A DNA stretch of 64,000 nucleotides, from contig NZ_PVYX01000001.1 of assembly GCF_003001695.1 (NCBI RefSeq), forward strand, positions 248,001 through 312,000. The letters are read 5' to 3'. The first letter of the stretch is position 1; every line of letters starts with the position of its first letter. Shown one piece after another: positions 27,190 through 47,309 of this stretch. The position numbers and the translations under genes were made by a program. The DNA comes from Flagellimonas meridianipacifica. GTDB taxonomy: Bacteria > Bacteroidota > Bacteroidia > Flavobacteriales > Flavobacteriaceae. The notes beneath the pieces were generated by a model that was not told the origin of the DNA, made no database searches, and saw only the letters and a program-made list of their open reading frames with translations.

Positions 27190-27897
27190 CTACTTCATGG
27201 AAAGGAATATAAAACTAGCATTATCTTCTGCCTCCATTTTTAATCTTCTGCGAATTTTTTCAATCACTTCATCCAATGATTTACAGCTATTTAGTAAATA
27301 CTCAATACTATGACTATCAATAATATTGTGCAATCCATCTGAGCAAATTATTAGCTTGTCTGTTTTATAGTTTAATTCCAATTCATCGTAAGAGACGATA
27401 GATTTCTTTGCATTACCTTGAACAGAGCGGGTTACTACGTGTGAATATTTTGATTTTATTTCTGAAATATTGGGAGTAACATCATCTAAGGTCTCATTAA
27501 ATAAATTGTGGGACTTGCTTTCAAAATCTAATTTGCTTTCTGAGTACTTTAGAATTTTTATATCCCCTATCCAAAAACATCTGGCTATATTGTTTTCAAC
27601 AATCACGCCCCCCACTGTTGCTCCTAGTTTGGACTGATTTAGTTCTTGAAATTGTCGAATTACCAGATTTGCTTTGTTAACTGCTTTCTGAATACTTTCC
27701 TCGTTAATTTCATCGACGGTAGACAAAAAAGTAGAAATGCTTTCTACTATCATCGATGCTGCGAGCTTTCCATTATCGTAACCTCCCATTCCGTCTGCTA
27801 TTAAATAGAGATTCGTTCCTGAACTTAGGCTGCTCTCCCAAATCACATCTTGATTTGTTCCCCTGTTTCCTTTATATGAAAATGCAATTGATTTCAT
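27190..27897 (-). CDS. PP2C-type Ser/Thr protein phosphatase
   Basis: The 235-residue protein contains the PP2C motifs in order: GNRGTNQD (10-17), ADGMGGYDNG (34-43), GATVGGV, FWIGD, CSDGLH and EDNAS near the end. The metal-binding aspartates (D17, D35, the Asp of SDG and of EDN) are all present, so it should be active. It overlaps the ATPase gene by 4 bases and is the last gene of the defence operon. The obvious partner is the kinase encoded in the same operon; it may hold that kinase pathway off in healthy cells. Confidence 0.9.
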   Translation of the reverse strand: MKSIAFSYKGNRGTNQDVIWESSLSSGTNLYLIADGMGGYDNGKLAASMIVESISTFLSTVDEINEESIQKAVNKANLVIRQFQELNQSKLGATVGGVIVENNIARCFWIGDIKILKYSESKLDFESKSHNLFNETLDDVTPNISEIKSKYSHVVTRSVQGNAKKSIVSYDELELNYKTDKLIICSDGLHNIIDSHSIEYLLNSCKSLDEVIEKIRRRLKMEAEDNASFIFLSMK

Positions 27898-30800
27898 TTA
27901 TTACCTGTAGCCTGTATAGTGCCTCCTCCATGCTTTGTCACTCTAGGTCTAGTCGAAACCTTTACCGGTTTAACTGAGATACTTTTTTCCGTTGCCTTGG
28001 TTGCCCATAAAAACCCTTCCCCAGGGGTTAAAGCGCTCATGTCCGCAGGAGTTAGAGTAGAAAGTTGGGTTATTGACTTTTGAATATGTTTAAGCCACTG
28101 CGGACTATTAAACTTATGTAGTAGCACAATAGAACTCAATTCAATAATTTCGTTAGGAAGACTTGGCGGATCTTGACTTGCAATCATTATACTCACTCCC
28201 TTATGTCTCATTTCCCTTATTGCTGTTACAATATTTCCAGTCAGGTCTTTATTGTCCATATATTTATGTGCCTCATCGAAGACAATGAATTTATTAAAGT
28301 GCAATCCGTTAAGATTCTTTACCGCAGAGAAAATATTAAGCATTATAACAAAAAGTCCTAAGGCTTCATCTTTTACAATAAATTCATCCCTCAAATCAAC
28401 AATGACTAATCGTCCTGGCATTAATACATCGCGCATCATAAAGCTGTCATTAATATATTCGCGAGCAAAACTTAGTTTCTGTCTTGCCAATGCTTTTTGA
28501 GAATTACTCAATAGTTCTGACTCTTCTACACTTTCCGAAAGAGCATTTATAGTTATATTAGATCGATGCTGTTTCATAATTGATTTGAGTTGTCTAATAT
28601 AGGTAGAGTCATTTCCTACTGCTCCTAAAATAAACAACCAATCTTGAACATTAAGTTCCTTAGAATTAAAGGCTATTGGCAATACTTTAATAGATGGATA
28701 TTCAGCTTGCCTTTCTACAATTTTGTCTTTTGGGGTGAGAATAATAACGTCCTCGATGTTATCCGCTTCAGCTCCATAACGTGCCTTCAATTTTTCTAAT
28801 TCCCGATTTTCATCATTAGAATGTACCATTGAGGTAAACTCAGGCGCATAGTCCATACTTTCACTATAGTGAAAAATGACCCCAGCTAGTGGTGATGGAA
28901 GTAGGTTGATATTGCTAAATTGTTTAAGAACCATTTCTGAGATAGTCCCAATAGTATAACTTTTACCGCCGCCTTGAACTCCAAATAGACTAATGGTGTT
29001 TGTCTCGCTAAGGTCAATAGCAATTTTTTTCTGTAAAGTACTTTCCCCGAGAATTCCAAATTGATTGCTTGGTAATGTTTTACCAATTAGCATGTCAAAT
29101 TCAGGACAGATATGTTCATTATGATTTGACACGAATTCCATAGAATCATCTTCTGTGTTTAATTCTATTTCCGTTTCGGCCGCCCTAAGGGTACCTTCTT
29201 GATTTGTCGGATATACCGTTTGCTCGGTCGGCGGACTTGCTGTAAAGTTATCAGGTTGAGAATCTGCTTCTGTTGAATTCTCAACCTCATCATCTCCGCT
29301 AGAATCGGATGTACTCTCGCTGGATTCAAATTTCGATTTGAATCTTTGAATAAAAGGTTTAAGTTCACTTATATTTCCAAAGGCTTTTGTAAGGTCTTTG
29401 TCAAAATCACTTTCTTCAAGTCTCTTAGTATTTAAATCTGAATAAGGGTCAAGAATATCATCAATCAACTTCCCTCCGAAAGTAAAAAAGGTGGACTCAT
29501 TATCTAGGACTACCTTTTTATGCCTTTCTGATGCTGCAAAATCAAAAATTAAACCTAGTTTTCTAAAGCAAAGACTAAACCCCGAATCAAGTTTTTGTAG
29601 AAAAGCTAAATACTGATTATATGCTTTATTGGATAGATACTCATATCTATGTGCTCTATCCAAATAAAAGGTCAATAGTGATTTTAGTTCCTTGTTTTTA
29701 ATTTCTCTATCTAACCTATCAAAAGAACTATTGTATGAAGGATCAAAATGATTTCTCAAGGCTTCTATTGTATTTTCTATCTGTTCGAGCATTTTTAACC
29801 TAAGAGCATCTTTTTCATTTTCTCCTAAGGCTTTACGGCATTTTATCTCTATTACCGAGATTAATATTTCTTTTCTATCGAGATCGATTGAAACAAGCAA
29901 GTTATCTGCTCTTGATTTACTTCCAGAAGGTAAATTCTCGAATAGGTTTTGATGCAAATCGATCGGGATCAGAAAAGCATCTTCTAACATTTCCTTTTTT
30001 TCCAACACTCGCTTGGTAAACGCAGAGCCAATTACCTCAAACGCCTTGTTTTTCGAAGAATTCAATTGAAGCACCAACGAACTACTAACTGCTCTTAAAT
30101 CTTCAAGAAGAATTTTTATTTTATGCTCGTCCTCTTCATTATGAATATCAAGGTTGAATTCTTCAAAGTGAGGCCCTAGTAGCCCTAATACTTCAGAGGT
30201 AGGCCTTGTTGTAAGATATGACGAAATTCCTAAAGCCTCTTCTCCAGGAACATAGTCCAGTAAAAATGGGATTTTACCATCCTTAGATGGTTGATCAAAT
30301 ATCTGTGGCCCTAGGTCTTTATCAAATGTTATTACCCAATCAGAATAATCGTGCAAGTGAGTAAGTAGAACCTTATCCTTATCATTTAACCTAAGTTGCG
30401 TAGAAGGTACGGATGGAGTGTGTTTTGACACTAAAGCCCCGCTTATAAAACTTTGAAGGTTTTCAAAAAGTTTAATGCCGTTTGCACCTGCCGTATCATA
30501 TTTTAGTGATAGTTTATTACCTTGAATGAAACGATTCCACTTAATTTGAGATCCATTTGCATCTACCTTCACTGTAGACTCAGTAATTAAACCATTCAAA
30601 TAAAAGTTGCGATCTTCTATAGTTGGTTTTATAAGTTCGATAGTTATAGGGAATGGACTTACCAAAAAACTCAAATGAGAGGTATAAGATGAGGGGTCTT
30701 TTAAGAAGTCTGAAATATCGTTGATTGAAAAACGTAATTTTGGAAACAATCTATTCCTAGAAGGTTGCGAAAATGCCTCAGCTTCTTCAGAGATATTTGA

Positions 30801-33338
30801 TTCTGGATTGATTAAGGTCTTTAAAGCTTCTCCATGCTCAATTATTTTGTCATCTCCCTTAAAAATTCGGACTTCATAATTGATACTCTCAAATGATTTT
30901 TCTTTTTCTAACTCGACAAATGCATTAGCAAATACCTCTGCATCCCCCGCATTGAATAAATTAACTACCAATTTATCTATATAAGGATGTTGCAATAGGT
31001 AATTTTTAATATGTCGAATTACCAATTTGATACTTAAATCAGTCTCTACATAGTTGTCCCTTGTGATATTAAATAACAACCTTAAATAATGCTGGAGTTG
31101 CCTAGAAATAGAAGTCATTCCATTTTTAGATTCTTGGGATACCGTACTTAGGTAAAGCCCCCATCCAAATGATAGCTCGCCACTATAATTAAATTGTTTT
31201 TGAGATATTGTCTCAATTAGAACTTGTTGGTTATTTTCAGGAGAGAGCTGACCAATAAACAATTCTTCTAAATGTTCTGACCAAGATTCTTTGTGCCCTG
31301 AAAATTCTTTTGTTCTTTGTTCCCAATTCTCAAAAACTTCTAAAAGTTGTAAAGTCCAACATAAGCGTAATGGATGTAAAGGTGATAGGAGAATTGCTTC
31401 GACTTTACTTCCGTCAGGTAATTTACTTTTGACCTTAACAAGGTCAATCATTTGCAATTCGATGAGAAACTCTCTAAGTTTTGTTTTCTCATCTAACGTT
31501 ATCTCGTCTGTCGCTAACTGGTTATTTAATTTTGTTGTCCATTTGGTATATGTATAGACATATTTTCTGATGTTCTGTTTGAGATTGAATATGTCTGCCG
31601 TTTCAAAAATTCCATTAGCTCTTGTATTTGAATTAATAATTGCTTCAAAAAGTTGCAATCTTGACTTTAGTAATGATTTCGGTACAATTTCGTTTAGTTC
31701 GCTTTTTACAAATTGTAATTGTTCAAAACCTATTGCCAGCTTATTGCCTTTTAGTTGACATCTTACATAGCCTAAGCTATCGGCATTTGTGAGAAATTTA
31801 TTTTCTATTTGACGCAGTTTAGTCGAGATGTTGATTTGATAATTATGTTGGTCAGAATAATTGATGTGAAACGTAGAGTTATGTTTTTCCTTTCCGTCAT
31901 TAATCCAAATGTTTGATGTTTCCGAAGGTTTTGGTAATTCAATTTCGATATCATTCTTTAACGCTTCTATGCGATATTTGAAATAGGCTTGTAAAACATT
32001 ATTTAGTTTATCCTTACGCTGATCTTCATCGCGTTCTAATGACTCCTCAATTACGTAGTCAAAATCAATCGAATCACAGCTGAGCTTATATGGAAAAGAA
32101 CTTTTTGGTGTACTTTCATCTTCTTTCTTAGCCTCCTCCCACGCTTTTTGAATTTTGGACTCACGAAACTCGTCATTAGCATTTAACATATTACCATGTT
32201 CGTCTTCAGCTAAAACCTTTATAAAATAGGATCCTTCCTCGATGATATTCGGGTTCAGCTCAAGTGTGGCATCTCTATAAGGTCTATTAGAATTTGAGTT
32301 TTTGATTTTTCTTAGTACTGTAATTTCTTCTCCATTACTTCCATTAACAGCCATCAGTATAATCCTAAAGAATCGTAAATCTTTTATATCCTTTGGATTT
32401 GGATTGGTGTGAAAACGAACTTTTAACTTTGCTACATTACCTTCTTGTGCGTAAAGGACATTGGTCCCATCTTCCACTTTTAAATCTTTAGACTTTATCT
32501 CGTCAGTTATCAATTTAATATGCGTAAAGTCTAAATCCGGAATAGGCCAGTAACTGAAATTTAATTCGTTATAGCCATTTTTAATAGCATTACAAATCTC
32601 TTGGGCATTTCGTGCTCCTTTTTCAGTTTTGAGAAAATTGACAATATCCTTTTGTATAGAATCATTTTCTAACCTTAGTTCAGCTATTCTATCATATAGT
32701 GGTTTATTGAAAGCTGATAATAACTCAACACTTTCTCTATTGAAATTCAATCTTGACCTAATTTTTTCAACATGTTTTGAAAGAATCTCATCAGGTATCA
32801 AAGAAAGTTTAAATAGACAATTTCCAATTGCCGAAGGCTCATACCTCTCTTGGTCAATAGCTATTAAGTAGTCTATTACTTCAGTATTTGAAGGGTTTAA
32901 ATAGTTTATAATATCATTAACTACCGTGTCATAAACATCATCGGGAACTTGTTCTATTAGAGTATTGACCAATTCTTCTTCCATACCTTCTAGAGATATC
33001 TCTTTAAAGGTTGCGTTACCATACGAATCTTCCGCAGCTGTGCGGCTGTTTGATGGTATTAAGATAAGTAGAGGTTTGTCCAGCTTATTGCGAAGCTCGA
33101 TAAGTTTTGTCGCGGAAATAAATTTGTGACTTGTGTTTTCGACTTCGGAAACAATATAAATATCTAGATGTGAATGTTTTTCAATAAGAAGATCCCATAA
33201 ATATTCTAATTCTATAACACCTAGGCCTGTAATTTTCATACAATGACCAGGGTCTGCCGCTTTGAAGTCAGTGTCGTGCAACTGAAGAATAAGGCCTATA
33301 ATCTTTTGGTAGTAAACGTTTATGGTAGTCGATTCCAT
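27894..33338 (-). CDS. 1814-aa HerA/FtsK-like ATPase with an apparent nuclease motif
   Basis: The C-terminal third is a P-loop ATPase: Walker A GVQGGGKS at 1453-1460, Walker B FIVFDEAH with D1688/E1689, and ASQDP soon after, as in HerA/VirB4-like DNA pumps. Upstream, D1145 (in ADNLLVSIDL), E1164 and K1166 (VIEIKC) have the spacing of a PD-(D/E)XK nuclease core. A linker rich in Ser, Glu, Asp and Thr (about 1340-1420) separates the two. The first 1100 residues are not recognised. In the operon it occupies the place I recall for the ATP-binding protein MAD8 of the methylation-associated defence system. It may translocate and cut unmodified DNA, since no HsdR is present. Confidence 0.75.
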   Translation of the reverse strand: MESTTINVYYQKIIGLILQLHDTDFKAADPGHCMKITGLGVIELEYLWDLLIEKHSHLDIYIVSEVENTSHKFISATKLIELRNKLDKPLLILIPSNSRTAAEDSYGNATFKEISLEGMEEELVNTLIEQVPDDVYDTVVNDIINYLNPSNTEVIDYLIAIDQERYEPSAIGNCLFKLSLIPDEILSKHVEKIRSRLNFNRESVELLSAFNKPLYDRIAELRLENDSIQKDIVNFLKTEKGARNAQEICNAIKNGYNELNFSYWPIPDLDFTHIKLITDEIKSKDLKVEDGTNVLYAQEGNVAKLKVRFHTNPNPKDIKDLRFFRIILMAVNGSNGEEITVLRKIKNSNSNRPYRDATLELNPNIIEEGSYFIKVLAEDEHGNMLNANDEFRESKIQKAWEEAKKEDESTPKSSFPYKLSCDSIDFDYVIEESLERDEDQRKDKLNNVLQAYFKYRIEALKNDIEIELPKPSETSNIWINDGKEKHNSTFHINYSDQHNYQINISTKLRQIENKFLTNADSLGYVRCQLKGNKLAIGFEQLQFVKSELNEIVPKSLLKSRLQLFEAIINSNTRANGIFETADIFNLKQNIRKYVYTYTKWTTKLNNQLATDEITLDEKTKLREFLIELQMIDLVKVKSKLPDGSKVEAILLSPLHPLRLCWTLQLLEVFENWEQRTKEFSGHKESWSEHLEELFIGQLSPENNQQVLIETISQKQFNYSGELSFGWGLYLSTVSQESKNGMTSISRQLQHYLRLLFNITRDNYVETDLSIKLVIRHIKNYLLQHPYIDKLVVNLFNAGDAEVFANAFVELEKEKSFESINYEVRIFKGDDKIIEHGEALKTLINPESNISEEAEAFSQPSRNRLFPKLRFSINDISDFLKDPSSYTSHLSFLVSPFPITIELIKPTIEDRNFYLNGLITESTVKVDANGSQIKWNRFIQGNKLSLKYDTAGANGIKLFENLQSFISGALVSKHTPSVPSTQLRLNDKDKVLLTHLHDYSDWVITFDKDLGPQIFDQPSKDGKIPFLLDYVPGEEALGISSYLTTRPTSEVLGLLGPHFEEFNLDIHNEEDEHKIKILLEDLRAVSSSLVLQLNSSKNKAFEVIGSAFTKRVLEKKEMLEDAFLIPIDLHQNLFENLPSGSKSRADNLLVSIDLDRKEILISVIEIKCRKALGENEKDALRLKMLEQIENTIEALRNHFDPSYNSSFDRLDREIKNKELKSLLTFYLDRAHRYEYLSNKAYNQYLAFLQKLDSGFSLCFRKLGLIFDFAASERHKKVVLDNESTFFTFGGKLIDDILDPYSDLNTKRLEESDFDKDLTKAFGNISELKPFIQRFKSKFESSESTSDSSGDDEVENSTEADSQPDNFTASPPTEQTVYPTNQEGTLRAAETEIELNTEDDSMEFVSNHNEHICPEFDMLIGKTLPSNQFGILGESTLQKKIAIDLSETNTISLFGVQGGGKSYTIGTISEMVLKQFSNINLLPSPLAGVIFHYSESMDYAPEFTSMVHSNDENRELEKLKARYGAEADNIEDVIILTPKDKIVERQAEYPSIKVLPIAFNSKELNVQDWLFILGAVGNDSTYIRQLKSIMKQHRSNITINALSESVEESELLSNSQKALARQKLSFAREYINDSFMMRDVLMPGRLVIVDLRDEFIVKDEALGLFVIMLNIFSAVKNLNGLHFNKFIVFDEAHKYMDNKDLTGNIVTAIREMRHKGVSIMIASQDPPSLPNEIIELSSIVLLHKFNSPQWLKHIQKSITQLSTLTPADMSALTPGEGFLWATKATEKSISVKPVKVSTRPRVTKHGGGTIQATGNK

Positions 33339-33345
33339 TCTTTTC

Positions 33346-34899
33346 TTAATCGTTTAATTCGTATCGAGGACGCACTCTTTGTAATATGTAGGCATCACTT
33401 AAATCGTTGTAAAAGCCTATTTGGCGTAGTTTCATTTTAAATGATTCTACATTTTCCTTAAAAGCTAAATGCGTATTCAAATCTGCATCTGTAAATCTTT
33501 CCTCAGAAAGGCCATTGATGATTAATCCATATCGTGTTCTTATGTTTTCTATTAATTCCTCTATGGATAGCGTTTTCGTAGTAAAATGATCTTCTTCAAC
33601 ATTTAATACCAATATTTGAACTAGCGTCTCCAATAGTCGAGTCCCTAAGACGAAACGCCGTGGATGCTTTTTACTTCGTCCTTGGGCCATAAATCCCCGT
33701 TCCGAATTCTTCTGTGAGAGATTATCAATAAGCTGTATATGATACCTATATTGATAAGCGCCGCGTGCTTTCACTATTAGTTCAATATATTTATCAAAAT
33801 AAGAGTCTTCATACTTTACCATATCTTTAATCAGTTCCCTATCATCTTCTTCTAGCGAATTGTATAGATTATCCCATTGAGTCTCAAAATAAATTTCAAA
33901 TCCCATAGGCTTTTCCGCTAGGACCTTAAGCGCTTTTTCTAGATTTGTTGAGTTTGTTTTCTCCAATTTTAATCTTCTCAGGGCAGCATTAATTTGAAAG
34001 GTAGCCTTGATATAATCGTAAATACTATTCGTTAAACTCTCAGCGTCATAACTCGCAAGTTTTGCGATTTTGCTTTCAAAATCATCTGTTGCATCTATTA
34101 CAATACTCCAATTATCACTATGCCTAATAGCTCCTTTTTCTACCATTTCAGGTAGTAGAAAAACTAGCTTTTGTATATAAATTGACAAATGAAATGACGT
34201 AATAGTCTTCAAATAATCTACCACAACGTTTCTCGGAATTTTTCTTTTATAAACTAGCAAACGTCTCACATCATCACAATAGAGTTTGGCTTGTTCCTCT
34301 AATAGCGGCTTGATTTGATTTAAAGAACTATTCGTATCTAAAAAACCAGGTTTAACATTTTTAATAACATGCAATAGTCCAAGACTGTCAACATCCAAAC
34401 CAGTTCTTATATTAATTTTATTAGTTGTGTTATCCCAACCTTCCATTAGAAAGCTCTTTAGTTCCTCTTTTACGTTGGGATTTGCGCCAAGCATTAAATA
34501 TACTTGATCTGCGGTGTTGTAATCTCTTGTGTGGGCTGCGTTTCTAACTCTATAACTTTCGAGGTGGATTGGTCTAAGAGAAGATATTTTCTCCTTATCC
34601 AGATTGCCTCTATAAACCATGTTTACCAGATTACTTCTCATCCAAAGCACTGCGGCTTCCTTGTTCTCGCTAAAGCCTTTTACAGAACCATCTTCTTCTA
34701 GCTTTCCAAAAACTCTCTGTAGAGTATCCAAGTCAATAAAAGAATTGCTTCTTGCGCGTTGTCTAGGTCTTATGCCATTGTGCTTTAAGAGCATAAACAA
34801 ATTCACAAATACATTATCTATGTTTACAGCTTTTGCATCCCCAGCATAAATAAGTTCGTTCCTCAAGACGCTTTCTTCTTTATTTAGTTTTATCGCCAT
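33346..34899 (-). CDS. Unrecognised 517-aa protein between kinase and ATPase
   Basis: A soluble, mostly helical protein without signal peptide, membrane segment or catalytic motif I can name. The middle is Lys/Arg-rich (GRSKKHPRRFVLGTRLLETL). Gaps of 2 and 7 bases link it to the kinase and ATPase genes. The place matches the uncharacterised MAD7 of the methylation-associated defence system as I remember it. It may be a scaffold between signalling and DNA-acting parts, but that is inference. Confidence 0.65.
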   Translation of the reverse strand: MAIKLNKEESVLRNELIYAGDAKAVNIDNVFVNLFMLLKHNGIRPRQRARSNSFIDLDTLQRVFGKLEEDGSVKGFSENKEAAVLWMRSNLVNMVYRGNLDKEKISSLRPIHLESYRVRNAAHTRDYNTADQVYLMLGANPNVKEELKSFLMEGWDNTTNKINIRTGLDVDSLGLLHVIKNVKPGFLDTNSSLNQIKPLLEEQAKLYCDDVRRLLVYKRKIPRNVVVDYLKTITSFHLSIYIQKLVFLLPEMVEKGAIRHSDNWSIVIDATDDFESKIAKLASYDAESLTNSIYDYIKATFQINAALRRLKLEKTNSTNLEKALKVLAEKPMGFEIYFETQWDNLYNSLEEDDRELIKDMVKYEDSYFDKYIELIVKARGAYQYRYHIQLIDNLSQKNSERGFMAQGRSKKHPRRFVLGTRLLETLVQILVLNVEEDHFTTKTLSIEELIENIRTRYGLIINGLSEERFTDADLNTHLAFKENVESFKMKLRQIGFYNDLSDAYILQRVRPRYELND

Positions 34900-34901
34900 A
34901 A

Positions 34902-37900: not shown

Positions 37901-39638
37901 ACTCAGTTGTGGTGTAAAATTGCCCATAACGGGTCTGTCCGTTCCATACAAATTTCACAATATTAGGATGGTCTAATTCCGCTAACGCTTTGTATTCATC
38001 TATTACAGAAGCAACACTAACACTTTCATGAAATAGTTTTAAGGCAAAATCACGTCCTTGCAAATCATGTTTCGCTTTGAAAACACGAGAATAACCCCCA
38101 CGCCCTAAAATCTTATGAATAATATAGTCATCTACGCGATCCCCTTCCTTTAAATCATATGTATCAAGTTGGTCATTTGCTATAGGAGAATTTGTAGCCT
38201 TCGTAGGTTCTTTGCTTGAAAACTCAACTTTTAAAGCTTCTTCGATATTAGTTTCTAATTCTTCTATACTATCTATGCGCTTATCACTATCGGTTAAGAT
38301 GGTTTTTAAACAGATATCATCTAGCCATTTTGGTAACGAACTATTCTCCGCGGACGGTAATCTATCTGTTGATAGTTGCCCTCCTAGTTTATCAAGTTCA
38401 AAAGGATTTTTTATGGGTTCTTTTCCTGTAAACAACCAAGCTATTAATACCCCTAACGAATATATGTCCGATGCTCTAGAAGCGTCTTTAGCAATAAGTT
38501 CTAACGGATGGTACGGTGTGGCACTAGATTCATTAATCGTAGGCATCACTGTGTAGCCATGGTCATTATGATCCGTAAAGTAGGACTTACCAAAGTTCCC
38601 TAAATACGCATAGCCATTACTTAAAAAGATATTATCAGGATTAATATCCCTATGGAAAATATTCTCCTTATGGGCTGATTTTAGAGCACTCATTACATTC
38701 TTTAAAATGCTTATACGTTCATCAAACGTGAAGGTTTTATTTCGTGACGCTGAACGTAAAGAATCATCTTCCATCAAGTCCGTAATTTCGTAAAAAAGAT
38801 GATTTTCTTCATCCAGTTTGAACTCGACAGGAAGAATGAACGGATTTGAACGGATTTTTATGAGCGCATTATATTGATTTAAGATACTTTCCTCGCGCTT
38901 TAGCAGTTCTACAGGTGATAAACCTACCACCTGTAGTGAATACTCCTTAACCCTTTTCCGTATGTTTGAGGTTACATTTTTGAGCTTTACCAGATATTCT
39001 ACATAATTATCCGATTCTTGTTTTAAGATTTCTACAATCTCGTAGCCTTGTACTTCTTTCTTTTCATTAGGAGCTTTTTTATTTTGCTCTCCTATTAAGA
39101 ATTGAACAATATCATTTTGAATATCAACGATAGCTGTTTCCCATTTACCAATTTGTTTGGGATTTTTAATATAATCAACTAGTTCGTTGGTAAGTATGAA
39201 AGATAGCTTACCTGCCTCCTGTCTTAGATTTGGAATGAATGAATTGGGATAGGAAAGCGTCACCATGTTTTGAATCCAAGCCTTTCCCCAATCTCTATTG
39301 GCCTCCTTAAGTTTTGATGCTAGAATAGCTGTTTTTTGGCGACCAGTTTTGAGTGGATTCGGTTTTTGTCTATCATTAATGTACCAGTAATCATCAGCAC
39401 CTTCTATGCGGCCTTTCCAGTCTTTATTTTCTATATTATAAATAGCATGGGGAGCAACCACTATCAGATCATATTCCCAAAACTGAGTGCGATTATTTCG
39501 GGGGTTGGTAGAAGCTATTTCCACATTTGGTATCAAGAAGTAGGTGTCAGGGAGTTTTATCTGCAAAAAATCAAGCAAACGCTTCTCCCCGGCATTCACT
39601 ACCGTTTCAAAATAAGGTGGTTTAATTATTTTTGCCAT
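34902..39638 (-). CDS. 1578-aa NERD, pseudokinase, kinase and P-loop NTPase fusion
   Basis: Domains in order: a NERD-type nuclease-related domain (about 10-130, with EYDLIVV and IENKDWKG); a first kinase-like domain with HRDINPDN at 329-336 but no glycine-rich loop and NFG in place of DFG, so probably inactive; a second kinase with loop GRGGYSRV (about 512), ALK lysine, HRDVKPQN at 624-631 and DFN for DFG, probably active; and a C-terminal NTPase with Walker A GNAGDGKT at 946-953 and cysteines at 1104, 1107 and 1112. Its start overlaps the hsdS-like gene. It fits the MADS kinase position (MAD6 as I recall) and would be the signalling hub of the system. Confidence 0.85.
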   Translation of the reverse strand: MAKIIKPPYFETVVNAGEKRLLDFLQIKLPDTYFLIPNVEIASTNPRNNRTQFWEYDLIVVAPHAIYNIENKDWKGRIEGADDYWYINDRQKPNPLKTGRQKTAILASKLKEANRDWGKAWIQNMVTLSYPNSFIPNLRQEAGKLSFILTNELVDYIKNPKQIGKWETAIVDIQNDIVQFLIGEQNKKAPNEKKEVQGYEIVEILKQESDNYVEYLVKLKNVTSNIRKRVKEYSLQVVGLSPVELLKREESILNQYNALIKIRSNPFILPVEFKLDEENHLFYEITDLMEDDSLRSASRNKTFTFDERISILKNVMSALKSAHKENIFHRDINPDNIFLSNGYAYLGNFGKSYFTDHNDHGYTVMPTINESSATPYHPLELIAKDASRASDIYSLGVLIAWLFTGKEPIKNPFELDKLGGQLSTDRLPSAENSSLPKWLDDICLKTILTDSDKRIDSIEELETNIEEALKVEFSSKEPTKATNSPIANDQLDTYDLKEGDRVDDYIIHKILGRGGYSRVFKAKHDLQGRDFALKLFHESVSVASVIDEYKALAELDHPNIVKFVWNGQTRYGQFYTTTEFLDGDNLSTYTKTDANLPIGTVYKLAEDMLCALSYLQNREKPILHRDVKPQNIIWDNEGRFVLIDFNVASLKQDDKAYVGTNPYLAPDLVDGHHINWDLSADTFALGITLYELVTKKYPWPQGRIPKISIDPENPKTINQRISDEFCEFLLKSIGTNSNKRFSSAQEMLDSLREIGIKNLLSENKEKAGSVVLDQKEYHTEVSIRQGSTVITLLNEMSNYGQLRKTIYSSLNKFKEKIDGYKTSISLKEKLKVVIKVDNEVLINETFWAGGARNFNDGNILKVYDALKHSFKENTNRLKEHKIDVEGIDMVDYVNSLYSQSKSGNWGTRVNDRGSQYDEATYSPSKLDRKLIPDILDARFKLIIITGNAGDGKTAFIRKIEDAASVKKLNRFKHKNGAEFEVNGISFESNYDGSQDEDGKVNNEVLESFFHPFEGLRNFYKASEGRIIAINEGRLVEFLKTSKKYKSLHDTIDQYFYKEGHFDLPPGLMIINLNLRSITAIDGEEPSLFRQQVKALTKKSLWTKCEGCSLANKCFIKYNVDSLNDPASGNEVITRLEWLLRTVGLKRELHITMRDLRSFIAFMIARDHSCEEVDDAYNSLLNKPEVYWQLYYFNITNPDYKDSGNNDRLVKLLRETDVGSVAIPNLDRDLFFGQHVARHYLEFADREFHLLDDFNTNKIWVPAHEQDNEILDKIKSIQKSFVRHQYYEGRVGNYKKRLPYQSLQSFYKALNVEKENSVSDVKLHYITNDEQSKSKQFHFDEEDFVDNSTFTKACLKQIKPLVQREEKGIKQLSIINQATEFMEVISLDSYKGYSWTDFKRATNTLTVKKAIPRLYEQLTEDSLLRLKISISRAISMNEGCENEAIWRKNLVLSTSEINDPFSRSFRLFDLSDFELFVSRTDHLVKYLEYEPDSLVFRHKQETHIELVISLDLFEMLYFIQQGYSPSLNDIRGKFVELTIFKNLLENITYNKVIVTRDNLEFYEISKDVKNHLSIKTMQL

Positions 39639-41038
39639 TTTTCTATTTCTTTTTCTACTAATGCTATTGCCTCTTCTTCTTTCGACAAAGCTTGATATAA
39701 CATAGTATGAGCTTTTTTTACTGATGTATCTATTTCATTCATGACAGGTTTCTCCAGAATTGGGACGGGAATATCCTTTAGTAGTGATGGAATCGGCCTA
39801 CAAAGTTTAGTACCGGACTGAGTAGCCCTTATCAATCTAAATCCATAATCAGAAGAGAGCCAACTATAAAGATAACCAGAGGGGACGTTATCGTTAGTTT
39901 TCATTCGAATGAACTCACCTGCAACCAATTGCCCTTTTAGTTCTTCATTAGCAAAAACAGGTCGACAAAATGCTTCGTTTTCCCCTAAAGTTCCAACGCC
40001 GGCTATTAGAACTTCCCCATATTCAACAAGCTTCTCGGTATTTATATATCTTTTCGATAACATTTTCCCTTTTTTTCTAAAATTGAAAATATCAGATTGA
40101 TTTATAAGTTTAATTGACTTTGAGGAATCTATTTCTAACCGCTTGAATGAACCTGTTGAGAATAAACCCGTTTCATTTAGGCATTCTCCCAACGGTTTAT
40201 GCACCACTTTCTTAATTCTCTTTTTTACTCTCTCAAGACGAGAGGAGTGATTGAAGGCATTAATCGTCAAAGAACTAATTTCCGAGATATTTTTATGAAA
40301 TGCAGAAACCTTTCTGTTTGAAGAGTGATTTCCAAAACAATCGTAATCTTCAATATCTAAAGCCTTCAATCCAACTTGACTAATTAGTTCTTTCTGGGTT
40401 TTTTTTAAAAGCAAATTGGCATTAGACAATAAATCTGAAGATTCTATAATTAAATTATGTATTTGCTCTTGTAGTTTTTGACTGGGAAGTAAAATTGGCA
40501 AATGGCCTAGTTCTACTGGTGAGATCCTGGGAACGACTGCACCATAAATCATAGATTGAATGTAATCCTTTATTATTGGCGAACTTATATATGCATACAA
40601 AAACCCATTCTTTACTTTTTCTGACTCAATTCTTATAATTTCTTGTGAGCCTACCGATCCAGAAAAACTTTTGTTAACTAAAGCCGTGTTGCCTACTGTC
40701 CCTGCACAGCTAACCAAGAACTGAGATTCCCTGAGAGTCATTTCTTCTATCCAAGGAGTGTACTTCTTTGAAATCTTTTTCGCTGTGTCTAAAGGCTGCA
40801 CCTTCATCATATCCGTTGCTGTAACATATTTAAAAGAATTGGTTTCAGACTCAACGAATACTCTTTTAAATATTCCTCCTTGATAAATTTTGTCACATAA
40901 ATTTGAAAGACTATCGTATTTAACGCCTTTTTCGATTAAGTCCGTAATGGTTTTCTTTCCTTTATTTAAATAGTAGTCAGGTTTAAGAACGGTTAATCCC
41001 TCGTCAAATCTTGATATTTTAATTAATCCAGTCTTCAT
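39626..41038 (-). CDS. hsdS: Type I specificity subunit (HsdS-like)
   Basis: The 470-residue protein has two target-recognition halves, each ending in a helical spacer. The strings GAVVPRISPVELGHLPILLP (about 165-185) and RPIPSLLKDIPVPILE near the end are the usual TRD-to-helix transitions of HsdS. It directs the methylase to a bipartite DNA site. The gene begins at the base after the methylase stop and overlaps the kinase gene by 13 bases. No HsdR is encoded anywhere in the window, so S presumably serves a non-classical system. Confidence 0.9.
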   Translation of the reverse strand: MKTGLIKISRFDEGLTVLKPDYYLNKGKKTITDLIEKGVKYDSLSNLCDKIYQGGIFKRVFVESETNSFKYVTATDMMKVQPLDTAKKISKKYTPWIEEMTLRESQFLVSCAGTVGNTALVNKSFSGSVGSQEIIRIESEKVKNGFLYAYISSPIIKDYIQSMIYGAVVPRISPVELGHLPILLPSQKLQEQIHNLIIESSDLLSNANLLLKKTQKELISQVGLKALDIEDYDCFGNHSSNRKVSAFHKNISEISSLTINAFNHSSRLERVKKRIKKVVHKPLGECLNETGLFSTGSFKRLEIDSSKSIKLINQSDIFNFRKKGKMLSKRYINTEKLVEYGEVLIAGVGTLGENEAFCRPVFANEELKGQLVAGEFIRMKTNDNVPSGYLYSWLSSDYGFRLIRATQSGTKLCRPIPSLLKDIPVPILEKPVMNEIDTSVKKAHTMLYQALSKEEEAIALVEKEIEKWQK

Positions 41039-43060
41039 CTATATTTTGGAATTTATAAATTGCAGATATTCATTATAGATTTCAGGCAAATCATCGTCTA
41101 GCTGCTTTAACTTTTCTTTTCTAATTTTCAATATTTTCTCGCCATTTCTCTTTTTTGAGAGATACCTTGTTTCGGAACTAAATAATAATTCAGCTCCTTC
41201 ATCATCACGCAAGTAAATTGGATTTCCTCTTCTGTCCTTACCCAATTTTTCTGCTATTGCCATAAATACATCATAGCCTTCGTCTTGTTCTTGTGCCAAT
41301 TGTACTTCTTGTTCTGTTTTCTTTTGCAAGAATAGTAATGAGGCTTGGACACCAACTTGTGGCAAGAACGCTTCTACTGGAAGATCTACGGAGGCAAGTA
41401 TTTTGAAGTGATTAAGAATCCACTCTCTTACCGAAAGCATATTGGGATTTCCTAGAATGCCATCTGGCAATACAATCGCCATTTTACCACCTTCTTTCAG
41501 AAGATTGTAGCAAGCCTCAATGAACAAAACTTCTGGCGCACTACTATACTGGCTTAGGTAGTAGCGGGACGCAATTTCCGTTTCGACCTTCACTTTGGCA
41601 CCAAATGGTGGATTGGTAAAAACTAAATCAAACTTACCACGAGCATCGGTAGTGTATACATTTTCAATATCCTGCATAACTCTGATACTCTCTTCTATCG
41701 TGCGGTTTATTTTTTCAACCTCTGCAGGGTGCTCCCATAGCGGGTAAGCAAGTGAGTTTACGTGAAAAATATTGGCGTGACCATCGCCGCCCATAACCAT
41801 GTTCATGCGTGCTGCTTTCTTTAGATCAGGGTCAAAATCAAACCCAAAAATGCTATGCTCGGCGTAAGTTCGAACACGTTCGTTCACTTCTATAGAATTA
41901 TATTTTTCTTCTAATAATGGCCCTTCCAACTCTGGATACATGTATTTGGTAATTTGCTGGCGAACATGGTCAAGAACCATTACCAAAAAGCCACCCGAGC
42001 CACAAGCAGGATCCAATACACGATGATGTTCTTTAGGATCAAGCATTTCTACCATAAATTTCACAATGTTACGTGGCGTAAAGAATTGTCCCGCCTCTTG
42101 TTTTAGGGTATTGCTCACTATAGTTTCATAAGCAAGCCCTTTTACATCTACGGAAGCATCTAGAAAAGAATATTTTGAAAGTTCTCCCGCAATAAAGGCC
42201 AGTCCTTTATCCGTAAGGTCAATGCTTTCATTTCCTTGAAACACTTCAGAGAACAAATTATCGTTTTTGAGTTCTTCAAAAAGACTTTTAATTCTTTTTG
42301 CTACAGCCTTTCGACCTTCTTCTGAATTCTGTTCTTTAACACCTACCCAAAATTTACGGCGGTAGCTTTCTCCGTTGGGTAACTCCATGAATCTTCGCTT
42401 CTCATCGTAGATTTTGCAAAATATAAGGTTCAGTAATTGCCAGAAGGCATCTTTTTTTCGACCTTCATTTCCATAGATATAATCATGCGAACGTTTGAAT
42501 ACTTTTATCAAAGAGTCATTTGCGGGCGTACGTGTATGCGAGCGGTCTGCTCGGTCTAAATCTTCCAAGGTTTCTCCTTCTCCGGGAAAGTCTGATAAAT
42601 CGGTAAATTCAAAATCAAAACCAATCCCATCATCTTCTTTTTGAAGAAAATGATAGCTAGAGCCATTTGCCCAAAGACCAAATTCACAACTATTAACTGC
42701 ACCCATTGCATTCTCCAAAGTAGCAGAAAGGCCTTTTTTCTTATCGGTTTCCTTAACCTTATCATCTTGTACTACACATATACGAATAATAAAATCTTGT
42801 TCGTGCGGTTTGTCTTTTTCAAAGATGGCTAAATCTATCTTTTGTTTTTTAGTTCGACCAGTATCTGGATCTTCGTAATCAATGGTATAATTGCGCTCCA
42901 TATCACCTAAGTCGAATCCATATTCTTCATTGAGCATTAAGATTACGGATTGCAAATTAGTTTCTTGCGCCTTTATTTTTTTTACTTCTCCTGTTAGTAT
43001 GCAAACGAGTTCATTATCTTCTAATACTACTTCTTCTTTACTTTTTATAGTTGTGGCCAT
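41039..43060 (-). CDS. hsdM: Type I N6-adenine DNA methylase (HsdM-like)
   Basis: The 673-residue protein carries motif I as DPACGSGGF (350-358), motif IV as NPPF (483-486) and the GQFFTPR block common to type I methylases. An N-terminal extension with RTKKQKIDLAIFEKDK looks like the HSDR_N/type I-associated domain. It would methylate adenine at sites chosen by the S subunit. At this length it is longer than simple HsdM, as in other defence systems that use a methylase without HsdR. Confidence 0.92.
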   Translation of the reverse strand: MATTIKSKEEVVLEDNELVCILTGEVKKIKAQETNLQSVILMLNEEYGFDLGDMERNYTIDYEDPDTGRTKKQKIDLAIFEKDKPHEQDFIIRICVVQDDKVKETDKKKGLSATLENAMGAVNSCEFGLWANGSSYHFLQKEDDGIGFDFEFTDLSDFPGEGETLEDLDRADRSHTRTPANDSLIKVFKRSHDYIYGNEGRKKDAFWQLLNLIFCKIYDEKRRFMELPNGESYRRKFWVGVKEQNSEEGRKAVAKRIKSLFEELKNDNLFSEVFQGNESIDLTDKGLAFIAGELSKYSFLDASVDVKGLAYETIVSNTLKQEAGQFFTPRNIVKFMVEMLDPKEHHRVLDPACGSGGFLVMVLDHVRQQITKYMYPELEGPLLEEKYNSIEVNERVRTYAEHSIFGFDFDPDLKKAARMNMVMGGDGHANIFHVNSLAYPLWEHPAEVEKINRTIEESIRVMQDIENVYTTDARGKFDLVFTNPPFGAKVKVETEIASRYYLSQYSSAPEVLFIEACYNLLKEGGKMAIVLPDGILGNPNMLSVREWILNHFKILASVDLPVEAFLPQVGVQASLLFLQKKTEQEVQLAQEQDEGYDVFMAIAEKLGKDRRGNPIYLRDDEGAELLFSSETRYLSKKRNGEKILKIRKEKLKQLDDDLPEIYNEYLQFINSKI

Positions 43061-43077
43061 ATAAATAATGGTTGTGT

Positions 43078-43923
43078 TTAATTAAGTTGGTTGATTATGT
43101 TTTCTATACTATTTAACACCTCTTCAAACGAGAATGCCTTGTGCGTTTCTATAATTTGATTGATCAGTTTACTGTCTTCCTTTTTATTGTTTTCAGCAGT
43201 TAATATTTCAACTATGGAAGCTTTGGTTTTTTGATGGGTTTTGAGCAATTCATTGATATCCTTACCTAAGAGAGTTGCGCCACTAGTTATTGTTGAAAAA
43301 GGTTCAACTCCATAAACTTCATCATAATGTTCCATAGCAGCTCGCTCTGAATTGATATTGAGATAGTTTTCTAAGATGAATCCCATATCATCAGCGTCCT
43401 TGTTATTTTTATGATTTCGGTCTTTCCACGCGGCTATTTTCAATAAAAAAATACCACTAAGGGTGGCAATTTTAATATCAGTCTCTTTATCGATACTAAT
43501 GGATAAAGCTGCTTCATCGGCAGCCGAAAATCCTAAGACTGACATAGCAAACTCTTCATCGGGCGGCCAGAATATTCTACTATCCTGTTTCATTATTTCT
43601 CCAAAAGGCACAATATCCAATTGAAACTTACCCTTATAGATAAAGCGTTGTTTTTGGTTCTTGTCTTTGGTAAAATTTTCAAGACTTATAATTTCCTCTT
43701 CAACCTTTTTCCATTGTTCCCAATCGTTGACTGTTATGGCGATATCGAGATCATGTGTTAAGCGACCAGATTTTTCATTATGTAATTCCATAATGATGTC
43801 TCTTGCCGTAGCTCCAATCACAAAAAAGGAGATTCCTGCCTCTTTAAAGTATTGTGTAAGCTCCATTAAAATGGGCTTTAACAGCGGATGAGTGAATCTA
43901 CTGCTAGATATATTGTAAGTCAT
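43078..43923 (-). CDS. AbiEii-like nucleotidyltransferase
   Basis: The 281-residue protein has the nucleotidyltransferase signature: FVIGATARD at 34-42 and THDLDIAI with D58 and D60 as metal ligands. The C-terminal half is helical, as in AbiEii/AbiGii toxins. Its start overlaps the AbiEi-like gene by 20 bases and it precedes the methylase by 17 bases, so it belongs to the same transcript. In type IV toxin-antitoxin pairs the transferase is the toxin. Here it may instead be a signalling or effector part of the defence operon. Confidence 0.8.
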   Translation of the reverse strand: MTYNISSSRFTHPLLKPILMELTQYFKEAGISFFVIGATARDIIMELHNEKSGRLTHDLDIAITVNDWEQWKKVEEEIISLENFTKDKNQKQRFIYKGKFQLDIVPFGEIMKQDSRIFWPPDEEFAMSVLGFSAADEAALSISIDKETDIKIATLSGIFLLKIAAWKDRNHKNNKDADDMGFILENYLNINSERAAMEHYDEVYGVEPFSTITSGATLLGKDINELLKTHQKTKASIVEILTAENNKKEDSKLINQIIETHKAFSFEEVLNSIENIINQLN

Positions 43924-44905
43924 TCTCCAATATTTGTTTTGCCGTTTCTATATTTCTGCCGTAACCGCTATTAATCAAATCAGCATATACCAAGAGGGCA
44001 GGGGCTACACCAGTGTCATCAAAATCATTCTTCCAAAATTTTTGTAATACTTCAATTTCCCCATCTTCACTTGGCACTAATCGAAGCACCTTAGCCAATT
44101 CTGATAGTTCTAGGTCAGTAAAAAGAGTGAAGTGTTCCGGTCTTAGATTATTGGTAAGAATAGCGCCACCAGGCTCCCCACCCCAAAGAATTGTTCCAAG
44201 ATTAGTATTCGTATTTATATTTCGCCAATGTTGTAAATAGTCTGGATCAATAAAACGCATACGTTTTCTTACGATACGTGGTCTAAGAACTTCATTGTAT
44301 TCGACAATCCATCGTTCTAAGAGTGCTCCTGTGTTCTTAAGAACACGTTTATCACTAGTTTTTAAAAGATAATTTAAGTCTTCAAGCTCTGCCATAACAT
44401 TGCTTACTGAACCTATAGAAACATCTGCCTTTTCTGCGATTTTTCGGTAAGAATCCTGAAGGTGTTCGGGCTTCGACAAAAGATGGAAGAGTATCTTTAA
44501 ACCAGCCTCTTGAAAGGCACGAGATTGATTAGTTTTTTCTCTTTTGACCTTCTTTTGCCCCTCAATATATATTACTAAATCATTGTGCTTGATAAAGGCA
44601 TTGCCAGCTACATCGATATAATTGATAAGACGTTCCTTCAATTCCTTTGCAGCCATTTTAGAAATATACTCAGCAATTAAAATAACAGGCCTACTGTTAT
44701 TATTTTTCATCTCCTGTAGTTGAGATAAAACAAGACCTTGATTAGAAGTTCTAACAGCAGATTTTGCTTCGACGATGAATTGCTCGTTTTTGATGCGCAA
44801 TAGAGCGTCATAATTTTGACGGCTACTATCTATTTCTATAGGAATGTTTATGAGCTGCTCAAGCTTAGAAGTGGCTTCATATATAAAGTCATTGTTACGA
44901 TACAT
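43904..44905 (-). CDS. AbiEi-like regulator with HTH and nuclease-like N-terminus
   Basis: The first gene of the operon, 333 residues. The N-terminus has D33, E46 and K48 (ALLRIKNEQFIVEAKS), spaced like a PD-(D/E)XK fold. A winged helix-turn-helix lies at about 151-182 (KIAEKADVSIGSVSNVMAEL). The C-terminal WGGEPGGAILTNNLRPEHFT is typical of type IV AbiEi antitoxins. It probably represses its own promoter, which carries three TGTTCATT motifs. The place corresponds to the HTH protein that I recall as first gene in MADS (MAD1). Confidence 0.8.
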   Translation of the reverse strand: MYRNNDFIYEATSKLEQLINIPIEIDSSRQNYDALLRIKNEQFIVEAKSAVRTSNQGLVLSQLQEMKNNNSRPVILIAEYISKMAAKELKERLINYIDVAGNAFIKHNDLVIYIEGQKKVKREKTNQSRAFQEAGLKILFHLLSKPEHLQDSYRKIAEKADVSIGSVSNVMAELEDLNYLLKTSDKRVLKNTGALLERWIVEYNEVLRPRIVRKRMRFIDPDYLQHWRNINTNTNLGTILWGGEPGGAILTNNLRPEHFTLFTDLELSELAKVLRLVPSEDGEIEVLQKFWKNDFDDTGVAPALLVYADLINSGYGRNIETAKQILENDLQYI

Positions 44906-44914
44906 AGTTTTTTA

Positions 44915-44967
44915 TGTTCATTATTTTCATTTGTTCAGCGACAATGAACATTCAAATATAATGAACA
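44915..44967. promoter_or_regulatory. Candidate operator: three TGTTCATT motifs
   Basis: AATGAACA at 44943-44950 and 44960-44967 (17 bases apart) and the inverse TGTTCATT at 44915-44922. They overlap the -7 box and the transcript start of the defence operon. Confidence 0.6.
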
Positions 44968-44982
44968 CTTTGTTAAATGCAA
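44953..44982 (-). promoter_or_regulatory. Promoter of the eight-gene defence operon
   Basis: On the minus strand TTG at 44982-44980, a 19-base spacer, and TATATTTG at 44960-44953. This is a near-perfect Bacteroidota promoter, about 48 bases before the ATG at 44905. No terminator is visible inside the operon. Confidence 0.8.
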
Positions 44983-45065
44983 AATATTCTTGTATACTAT
45001 TAATGATGTATCCGACAACAAGTTTTCTTGCCTTCAAATACCTCCAATATAATAAGGGTTTGAAA

Positions 45066-47017: not shown

Positions 47018-47019
47018 TA

Positions 47020-47307
47020 TTATAATAAATCAAGGTCTTGCAGTTTTCTTCCGAATTCATCGTCTACTGCTAGCTTTTTAAAATCCTCTTCAAGATTCAA
47101 TACTCTAAACACATTGAAGTAAGAACCTATGGCAACCTTTGGGTCACCCTTTTCTATTCTATACAATGTAGTTCGGTTAATTCCTGCGCGTTCGGAAACC
47201 TGCTCGGTCGTAAGCTTTCTTCGCTTTCTCGCCAACTTTATATTCTCGCCCAACTGCTCAAAAATCTTATGGTACTTTGGCAATAGAATAGCTTTCTTAG
47301 GATTCAT
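47020..47307 (-). CDS. hipB: HipB-like antitoxin (XRE regulator)
   Basis: The ATG at 47307 gives 95 residues. A longer frame would begin with TTG inside the promoter. The helix-turn-helix is about 33-54 (LTTEQVSERAGINRTTLYRIEKG), followed by a dimerisation helix. It would bind HipA and repress the operon at the inverted repeat upstream. Confidence 0.9.
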   Translation of the reverse strand: MNPKKAILLPKYHKIFEQLGENIKLARKRRKLTTEQVSERAGINRTTLYRIEKGDPKVAIGSYFNVFRVLNLEEDFKKLAVDDEFGRKLQDLDLL

Positions 47308-47309
47308 TT

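Follow-up and report, generated by a model that had tools for sequence, protein, structure and literature searches.

The methylation-associated defence system (MADS) was reportedly described by Maestri et al. 2024 as a set of eight genes, mad1-8. A February 2026 review gives its mode of phage restriction as unknown (PMC12904381). SspFGH and DndFGH damage unmarked DNA and are harmful to cells in which the modification genes are missing (PMC8092258, PMC11662687). One of these reports finds no sequence homology between the two (PMC8092258), so results on DndFGH, phosphorylation included, transfer by analogy only. Within that limit, the finding that a phage kinase phosphorylates and thereby inactivates DndFGH (PMC12345140) indicates that phosphorylation can act as a switch on a machine of this type. 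In a described variant of DndFGH, a NERD domain, an inactive kinase and an active kinase precede the DndF core; the same source calls DndFGH stand-alone, without an inbuilt modification module, and its main text mentions neither MADS nor a specificity subunit (PMC10853773). Pgl has been interpreted as a toxin/antitoxin system in which the kinase is essential, and it depends on the kinase activity of PglW (PMC4365076). Lastly, AbiEi proteins, known from the type IV toxin-antitoxin system AbiE, autoregulate via inverted repeats (PMC7319586).

The window (the whole stretch of DNA analysed, 64,000 nucleotides from a marine bacterium) carries eight genes at positions 27190..44905, given here in transcription order:

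43904..44905, minus strand: AbiEi_2-family regulator/antitoxin-like protein, 333 aa (Pfam AbiEi_2 79.7 bits, cut-off 21)
43078..43923, minus strand: AbiEii-like nucleotidyltransferase, 281 aa (Pfam AbiEii 30.8 bits, cut-off 22.5; PADLOC PDC-M21B 7.5e-6)
41039..43060, minus strand: MAD2 (M), N6 DNA methyltransferase, 673 aa (NCBIfam MADS2 833.7 bits, cut-off 720; Pfam N6_Mtase)
39626..41038, minus strand: MAD5 (S), type I-like specificity subunit, 470 aa (NCBIfam MADS5 517.7 bits, cut-off 400; Pfam Methylase_S)
34902..39638, minus strand: MAD6, 1578 aa, with NERD nuclease-like, pseudokinase, Ser/Thr kinase and SspF/DndF-type P-loop domains (NCBIfam MADS6 763.2 bits, cut-off 460)
33346..34899, minus strand: MAD7, SspG-like, 517 aa (NCBIfam MADS7 648.4 bits, cut-off 410)
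27894..33338, minus strand: MAD8, SspH-like, 1814 aa, with a middle nuclease-like region and a C-terminal HerA-like ATPase (NCBIfam MADS8 222.9 bits, cut-off 175)
27190..27897, minus strand: PP2C Ser/Thr phosphatase, 235 aa (Pfam PP2C_2 47 bits, cut-off 24; PADLOC PDC-M21C 9.5e-10)

All eight reading frames were confirmed, and the junctions between them, in transcription order, measure -20, +17, 0, -13, +2, +7 and -4 bases, which bears out the one-strand operon with gaps of at most 17 bases or overlaps described in the first-pass annotation. Every gene identity proposed there, the nucleotidyltransferase and the PP2C phosphatase included, is backed by Pfam and NCBIfam. Its reading of the operon as a MADS variant also holds, as MAD2, MAD5, MAD6, MAD7 and MAD8 all exceed NCBIfam curated cut-offs. 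The proteins that it had listed as a 517-aa unknown and an 1814-aa ATPase are MAD7 and MAD8, both above NCBI equivalog cut-offs, so the possibility that they bear no relation to these families fell away.

The five genes are ordered as in L044, a Piscinibacter plasmid locus in which every one of the eight MADS positions is occupied. Unlike the eight-gene form, the operon has neither MAD3 nor MAD4 between M and S, which abut with a 0-base gap, and no small HTH MAD1, and it has an AbiEi-nucleotidyltransferase head and a PP2C tail. The absence of MAD3 (the AAA ATPase) and of MAD4 had been claimed before, and we agree with it. The PADLOC mad4 model, which recovers MAD4 in the canonical locus W01 at 5.9e-22 and matches 3 of 14 controls, has no match in the whole genome to which the window belongs, in W02 or in the five further genomes of the genus that carry MADS. 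The mad3 model is unspecific (matches in 9/9 genomes or records and 14/14 controls), as is the mad1 model (14/14 controls), whose three matches in the genome all lie outside the window. Judged by its gene content, the operon is a MADS variant and not the eight-gene form.

A survey of 32 related loci, which include near-copies of one another such as L007 and L008, found the identical eight-gene order in 16 of them, a recurrence that is not due to chance. M, S, MAD6, MAD7 and MAD8 are contiguous in 32/32 loci and are followed by PP2C in 30/32. The absence of MAD3 and MAD4 together with a PP2C tail is thus the common form (30/32 loci found), and only one of the loci compared has the canonical eight-gene form. 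No catalogue entry for the eight-gene order was found in the defence-system literature searched, with the founding MADS paper standing outside that search. PDC-M21 was considered as a catalogue name and rejected: it is matched weakly, by the nucleotidyltransferase and PP2C only, and the name is absent from the literature searched.

The most informative relation of the operon had been overlooked in the first-pass annotation. By profile comparison with hhalign, the C-terminal part of MAD6 (MAD6C), MAD7 and MAD8 are homologues of SspF, SspG and SspH, encoded in the same order. The parts concerned are:

34920..36953, minus strand: MAD6 SspF/DndF-type domain, aa about 896-1573 (PADLOC SspF 1.8e-25; limits taken from the match to the kinase-less L055 protein)
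29832..29915, minus strand: MAD8 PD-(D/E)xK-like motif, SRADNLL...VIEIKCRK, aa 1142-1169 (conserved; aligned with AD...EaK of SspH)
27915..29045, minus strand: MAD8 HerA-like ATPase, aa 1432-1808, Walker A GVQGGGKS (PADLOC mad8 1.4e-38, HerA 8.3e-7)

Against profiles built from 11 SspFGH loci, MAD6C matched SspF with a probability of 99.6 (E 4.3e-24), MAD7 matched SspG at 98.2 (E 3.8e-14), and MAD8, in profiles that leave out L025, matched SspH at 97.7 (E 2.1e-12), while 12 mismatched pairings and 18 controls reached at most 0.8%. The MAD8 alignment is near-collinear (aa 776-1309 on 767-1281), with the nuclease motif aligned. An earlier MAD8-SspH comparison that used only three SspH sequences gave a probability of 8.2, and a plain HMM search with a wider MAD8 profile gave one weak SspH match (L061H, 0.03, in the nuclease region). 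PADLOC also matched SspG at 1.8e-8, and MAD6C has a Walker A motif (GNAGDGKT) and a Cys motif. AlphaFold models were poor and were set aside, with pLDDT of 53 for MAD7 (20 rows) and 54 for MAD8 aa 500-1400 (21 rows), and a Foldseek search of these models against the PDB gave nothing at E <= 0.001. Searches of PDB sequences with a limit of E 1 gave no match for MAD7, three weak matches for MAD8 (best TdpA, 0.0016) and two for MAD6C (best 0.061).

The systems share the F-G-H order and an H protein that combines a nuclease-like region with a translocase-type ATPase, but there are also differences. The ATPase of MAD8 is HerA-like whereas that of SspH is FtsK-like, F is fused behind NERD and kinases in our operon, and the self mark proposed here comes from a DNA methyltransferase with a specificity subunit. 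No phosphorothioate modification genes are among the eight, and a search of the rest of the genome for TIGR03236 alone gave no match. Compared with the NERD-kinase-DndF variants of DndFGH, MAD6 has the same domain order, but M and S are built into the present operon.

Our main reading, to which we assign a probability of roughly 0.7, is that the operon is a MADS variant acting as a methylation-gated SspFGH-type restriction system under the control of a kinase and a phosphatase. M and S would methylate host sites, creating a self mark that replaces phosphorothioate. MAD6C as an F-type NTPase, MAD7 as a G-type DNA-reading subunit and MAD8 as an H-type nuclease with a HerA-like translocase would form the attacking machine, which would damage DNA without the mark and would presumably act against phages. 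While SspFGH reads phosphorothioate, the reading of base methylation by the G/H pair is our proposal. The activity of the machine may be set by reversible phosphorylation, with the PglW-like NERD-pseudokinase-kinase region opposed by PP2C. AbiEi, by binding a palindrome over the promoter, would hold down expression of the operon, and the nucleotidyltransferase may be a toxin or serve as a back-up effector, the head being a separate cassette. Correspondence of MAD6C, MAD7 and MAD8 to SspFGH supplies a concrete and testable mechanism for MADS, and suggests that methyl-marking and sulfur-marking defences share one effector chassis.

The proposed control rests on the following parts of MAD6:

39255..39596, minus strand: MAD6 NERD domain, aa 15-128 (Pfam NERD 60.2 bits)
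38229..39011, minus strand: MAD6 first kinase-like domain, probable pseudokinase (NFG for DFG; limits approximate)
37395..38123, minus strand: MAD6 second Ser/Thr kinase domain, aa 506-748 (Pfam Pkinase)

Across 33 aligned rows, NFG replaces DFG in the first kinase-like domain (33/33), while K534, HRDxKPxN and DFN of the second are invariant, and the latter domain is probably active. The motifs of PP2C (D, DGMGG, GD, SDG, DN) are conserved in 30 loci. Since PP2C is missing from Bacillus, Hymenobacter and Piscinibacter loci that retain the kinase, and is the least conserved of the enzymes (50% identity), it is not essential to the core. With kinase and phosphatase in the same variant, the role of phosphorylation is testable. 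A tentative extension of our reading, which we regard as rather doubtful, would place MADS within the Ssp/Dnd FGH group as the arm that uses methylation. In the present variant the fused kinase would then keep FGH inactive, much as the phage kinase inactivates DndFGH, until PP2C frees it on infection; if true, a built-in reversible phosphorylation brake would act on a nuclease for which the self mark (methyl instead of sulfur), the specificity subunit and the transcriptional head are all exchangeable.

The same domains could also fit a growth-limitation system like Pgl (BREX type 2), in which MAD6 senses infection and phosphorylates partners, leading to methylation or suicide, with NERD and the nucleotidyltransferase as effectors and MAD7 and MAD8 as non-nuclease DNA-tracking sensors. 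The N-terminal 750 aa of MAD6 match PglW (NCBIfam 219.6 bits against a cut-off of 990; PADLOC 1.3e-63), the NERD residues D57...E70-N-K72 are invariant in 33 rows, and the toxin/antitoxin interpretation of Pgl agrees with such a role. However, PglZ has no match in the operon and the methyltransferase is not of the PglX type, as PglX models score 25.5-47.2 bits against cut-offs of 500-900. The PD-(D/E)xK-like residues of MAD8 are conserved and align with SspH, and L055, with the order SspF-MAD7-M-S-MAD8, has neither NERD nor kinase. We therefore consider this explanation unlikely.

The head consists of the first two genes and the predicted elements upstream of them:

44915..44967, minus strand: predicted palindromic operator (half-sites TGTTCA/TGAACA), which overlaps the -7 box and lies 9 bp ahead of the first ATG
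44953..44984, minus strand: predicted Bacteroidota-type promoter, read from the sequence, with TTTTG (44980-44984), a 19-bp spacing and TATATTTG (44953-44960)

The promoter consensus in Bacteroidota is TTTG/TAnnTTTG. Where the first-pass annotation proposed one strong promoter, a putative -33/-7 pair of this type is visible, placed at the conserved palindrome that precedes the first gene. A pattern scan for sigma-70 promoters and terminators stayed near chance (83 sites against 67.6, sd 8.8, and 13 against 11.0, sd 3.8). The palindrome was found in all 12 AbiEi-headed loci whose upstream region measures 60 bp or more, its core identity is 0.90 compared with 0.30-0.38 further upstream (six diverged loci), and its palindromicity was matched by 1 of 2000 shuffles. 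The core site occurs once in each of six genomes with MAD7 and in 2 of 54 others.

Like type IV AbiE systems, the head combines AbiEi_2 and AbiEii domains, both above Pfam cut-offs as expected of a bicistronic AbiEi/AbiEii pair, with overlapping genes and inverted repeats in the promoter; unlike them, the pair is embedded at the head of a defence operon, and its toxicity is putative. The pair could nonetheless be the real effector, guarding the MADS machine and causing cell death if that machine is blocked. The GATARD...THDLD motifs of the nucleotidyltransferase are near-invariant (16 loci), the two genes overlap by 20 bases, and stand-alone copies of the pair, without MADS, exist in two genomes of the genus. 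On the other hand, 14 of the 32 loci carry a regulator of the DUF6577 type and lack the nucleotidyltransferase, L021 has AbiEi without the nucleotidyltransferase, one other locus has neither, and the head type switches at least four times on a core tree built without L025 (which meets a contig end), L047, L055 and L066. An effector role of this kind is unlikely. The head forms a regulator cassette that can be exchanged and has a conserved operator of its own. Being one of several such heads, it should not define a subtype; the proposed subtype with a toxin-antitoxin-like head and a PP2C tail stands in its composition, not in its use of the head as the defining feature. Separating the core from its exchangeable heads should aid annotation tools in which MAD1, MAD3 and MAD4 are expected.

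MAD2 has a conserved NPPF motif, and S averages 35% identity across loci compared with 80% for M and 78% for MAD7; the two halves of MAD5 vary independently (half-gene mosaicism). In line with the earlier claim that HsdR is lacking, Pfam, NCBIfam and PADLOC searches found no HsdR gene in the operon; the sole trace was a match to HSDR_N_2 within M that stays below threshold (24.9 bits against a cut-off of 25). An ordinary type I/II restriction-modification operon beside unrelated defence-island neighbours (AbiE pair, kinase, phosphatase) would agree with PADLOC's best models for M and S, which are ordinary methyltransferase and specificity models, and with the MADS-free head pairs, but the unbroken five-gene core, the missing HsdR and the overlapping genes make it very improbable, and we already disfavour it.

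Relatives of MAD7 were not found in phage records by tblastn, in viral contigs by a pattern scan limited to close relatives, or in E. coli genomes by a distant blastn search with the Piscinibacter gene. No empty insertion site was established, and the window contains no second copy of the tRNA-Met 3' end. Homology to a near relative (G002) starts at window position 48849, and the other side of G002 maps elsewhere in the genome of the window.

The eight open reading frames that the first-pass annotation placed on the minus strand between 27190 and 44905 were all found in position, and they are tightly packed as it claimed, with junctions of -20, +17, 0, -13, +2, +7 and -4 bases. The profile search that it proposed assigned every one of the eight proteins. 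Five exceed the cut-offs of NCBIfam equivalog models: MAD2 (833.7 bits; cut-off 720), MAD5 (517.7; 400), MAD6 (763.2; 460), MAD7 (648.4; 410) and MAD8 (222.9; 175). The suspected methylation-associated defence system (MADS) variant is thus upheld, as is the kinship of the 517-aa and 1814-aa proteins with MAD7 and MAD8. The remaining three proteins exceed Pfam cut-offs (AbiEi_2, AbiEii and PP2C_2). The AAA ATPase (MAD3) and MAD4 are absent, as had been noted, and their slot is empty. Because three features of the eight-gene MADS form (MAD1, MAD3 and MAD4) are lacking, the operon is a variant outside that form.

The chief interest of the operon is that, on the evidence of profile comparisons, MADS is tied to the restriction module SspFGH through homology of MAD6C (the C-terminal domain of MAD6), MAD7 and MAD8. 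With PADLOC models, the C-terminal 699 aa of MAD6 match SspF (1.8e-25) and MAD7 matches SspG (1.8e-8), while the mad8 model is matched by SspH of the comparison locus L060 across its ATPase (9.8e-24). We then compared profiles built with 11 SspFGH loci, eight plasmid-borne plus L059-L061. An annotated phosphorothioate-type gene lies near SspFGH in seven of the eight plasmid loci (PAPS reductase; in one also DndB), and none is annotated in the stretch of L104. Profile-profile comparison paired MAD6C with SspF (99.6%, E 4.3e-24, 516 columns), MAD7 with SspG (98.2%, E 3.8e-14, 318 columns) and MAD8 with SspH (97.7%, E 2.1e-12, 776-1309 on 767-1281 over 477 columns). SspH was also the sole match of three MAD8 sub-fragments (81.1, 88.2 and 97.6%). 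All 12 mismatched F/G/H pairings and 18 controls (the MAD6 N-terminus, M, S, AbiEi, nucleotidyltransferase and PP2C, each against F, G and H) gave at most 0.8%. A smaller, earlier profile set of three SspFGH loci had yielded 99.1, 85.1 and just 8.2% for F, G and H, and plain HMM search for SspH a single weak match (0.03). On a Polaromonas plasmid, an SspFGH module is preceded by genes for a Phd/YefM antitoxin and for a DUF6036 nucleotidyltransferase (L103:636-1690), a toxin-antitoxin-like head here too.

Rakesh, Aravind and Krishnan describe a DndF that carries NERD and tandem kinases, a triple-wHTH DndG and a DndH that joins a nuclease to a HerA/FtsK ATPase, and term DndFGH stand-alone; the words "MADS" and "specificity subunit" are absent from the main text of their paper (PMC10853773). 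Other papers describe PglW as sharing this tripartite arrangement (a 2026 BREX survey, PMC12839542), damage to unmarked DNA and harm to mark-less cells by SspFGH and DndFGH, SspFGH being stated to lack sequence homology to DndFGH (PMC8092258, PMC11662687), and inactivation of DndFGH through phosphorylation by a phage kinase (PMC12345140). A 2026 review lists the restriction mechanism of MADS as unknown (PMC12904381), and further literature only cites or lists MADS. Outside preprints and Maestri et al. 2024, we found no publication that calls MADS SspFGH-like or describes this subtype. Composition, homology, conserved residues, operator and exchange are the established parts of the mechanism that we propose, in which DNA would be methylated and unmarked DNA attacked.

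Conserved or near-invariant among relatives are GATARD...THDLD of the nucleotidyltransferase, which may be toxic, the PP2C metal motifs, K/HRD/DFN of the second MAD6 kinase, D...ENK of NERD, NPPF of the methyltransferase and, computed without the truncated L025, RADnLL...IEiKCR of MAD8. NFG replaces DFG in the first MAD6 kinase domain in 33/33 rows, so this domain is probably a pseudokinase. A phospho-switch, putative also in its direction, would form part of the mechanism. The AbiEi-like protein (window 43904-44905) has, in its first 110 aa, the sequence YDALL...FIVEAK, which resembles a PD-(D/E)xK motif.

The gene-order survey that had been suggested was made with a MAD7 scan, which gave 32 loci (31 from Bacteroidota, one from Bacillus). 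M-S-MAD6-MAD7-MAD8 is contiguous and in this order in all 32, with the MAD3/4 slot empty throughout, and PP2C directly follows MAD8 in 30, the exceptions being L025, at its contig's end, and the Bacillus locus L027. Since the scan recovers relatives of the window's MAD7, other forms are under-sampled. The head is AbiEi plus nucleotidyltransferase in 16 loci, AbiEi alone in one (L021) and a ~240-aa regulator in 14 (DUF6577 by Pfam in two, the others assigned by sequence likeness); in one none was found. MAD7 is also present on four plasmids, listed here with two loci from the window's genus.

Gene content of plasmid and same-genus MADS loci
Piscinibacter plasmid: HTH-M-AAA-hypothetical-S-kinase-MAD7-MAD8, treated as the canonical form
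Hymenobacter plasmid: DUF6577 head, without PP2C
B. finegoldii plasmid: HTH head and PP2C
P. massiliensis plasmid: PP2C present
L065, same genus: AbiEi to MAD8, where its stretch ends
L066, same genus: AbiEi through PP2C

On the P. massiliensis plasmid the M gene is split into two ORFs (L047:6423-8434). MAD7 exceeds its cut-off in 6 of 148 relatives' genomes, in 1 of 395 in the phylum sample (the window's own; five others match below it) and, for the phylum of Bacillus, in one of 199 sampled genomes, which is the seed genome (two others match below it). The PADLOC mad4 model, which 3 of 14 controls also match, detects the canonical Piscinibacter plasmid (5.9e-22) and has no match in six genomes of the window's genus or in the B. 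finegoldii plasmid; its two matches in the Bacillus genome are both off the MAD7-bearing contig. The PADLOC mad3 model is unspecific.

Under the label INTERMEDIATES we consider other loci in which FGH-like genes accompany methyltransferases. In L055 (Bacteroidota, G476) the order is SspF/DndF-like-MAD7-M-S-MAD8, without a kinase and without PP2C downstream. Its 592-aa F protein (SspF 2.7e-26, DndF 1.2e-13) aligns only to MAD6 aa 896-1573 and lacks the HRD motif, and its MAD7 scores 363.6 bits, under the cut-off of 410. This kinase-less, rearranged locus probably links Ssp/Dnd with MADS. L056-L058, from one genus, carry genes similar to one another; L058, the one scanned for MADS-model scores, encodes a NERD-kinase-F protein (MAD6 148 bits, cut-off 460; DptF 21 bits, cut-off 50) together with proteins resembling MAD7 (103 bits) and DndH (2.9e-21) and, upstream, an adenine methyltransferase-like protein (64.9 bits, cut-off 292). 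These loci are perhaps a further methylation-coupled FGH system. FGH-like machines thus accompany methyltransferases in more than one arrangement.

Immediately 5′ of the AbiEi start lies the palindrome TGTTCATTATATTTGAATGTTCATTGTC(A/G)CTGAACA with an extra TGAACA arm, kept in 12/12 upstream regions of at least 60 bp. It contains TATATTTG, which we take to be the Bacteroidota -7 box. Core identity is 0.90 in six diverged loci, against 0.30-0.38 further upstream, and only 1 of 2000 shuffles was equally palindromic. Of 60 genus genomes scanned, the six that are MAD7-positive have the operator core (at most one mismatch) a single time each, and 2 of the 54 MAD7-negative ones have it as well. The latter two (L097, L098) hold a stand-alone AbiEi and nucleotidyltransferase with the same operator; their stretches contain no MADS, and the element appears to be the same one. 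In loci headed by the ~240-aa regulator the element is another one, whose half-site TGCC(A/G)AA was read by eye in 14/14. On a quick 36-row tree of MAD2+MAD7+MAD8, which carries a long-branch warning for L044-L046, at least four changes of head class are seen. From the operator distribution, the differing elements and these changes, we conclude that the head is an exchangeable regulator cassette, in which AbiEi would repress expression. This agrees with AbiEi autoregulation via inverted repeats, as described in PMC7319586.

Identity of S among relatives averages 35%, that of M 80%, MAD7 78%, MAD6 and MAD8 71%, and PP2C 50%. The window's S differs from that of L007 in its N-terminal half and from that of L009 in its C-terminal half, the pattern that an exchange of target-recognition halves would produce.

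Conjugation genes at window 1779-22676 encode a relaxase, coupling protein (T4CP), ParA, VirB4/TraG, TraM and a TraN-like protein (DUF4138), and a HipA-like toxin/HTH pair adjoins the operon (window 45764-47328); the operon is therefore probably carried as cargo by an integrative conjugative element. The ends of this presumed element were searched for and not found. Close to the MADS locus of the B. finegoldii plasmid, too, there is a HipA/HTH set.
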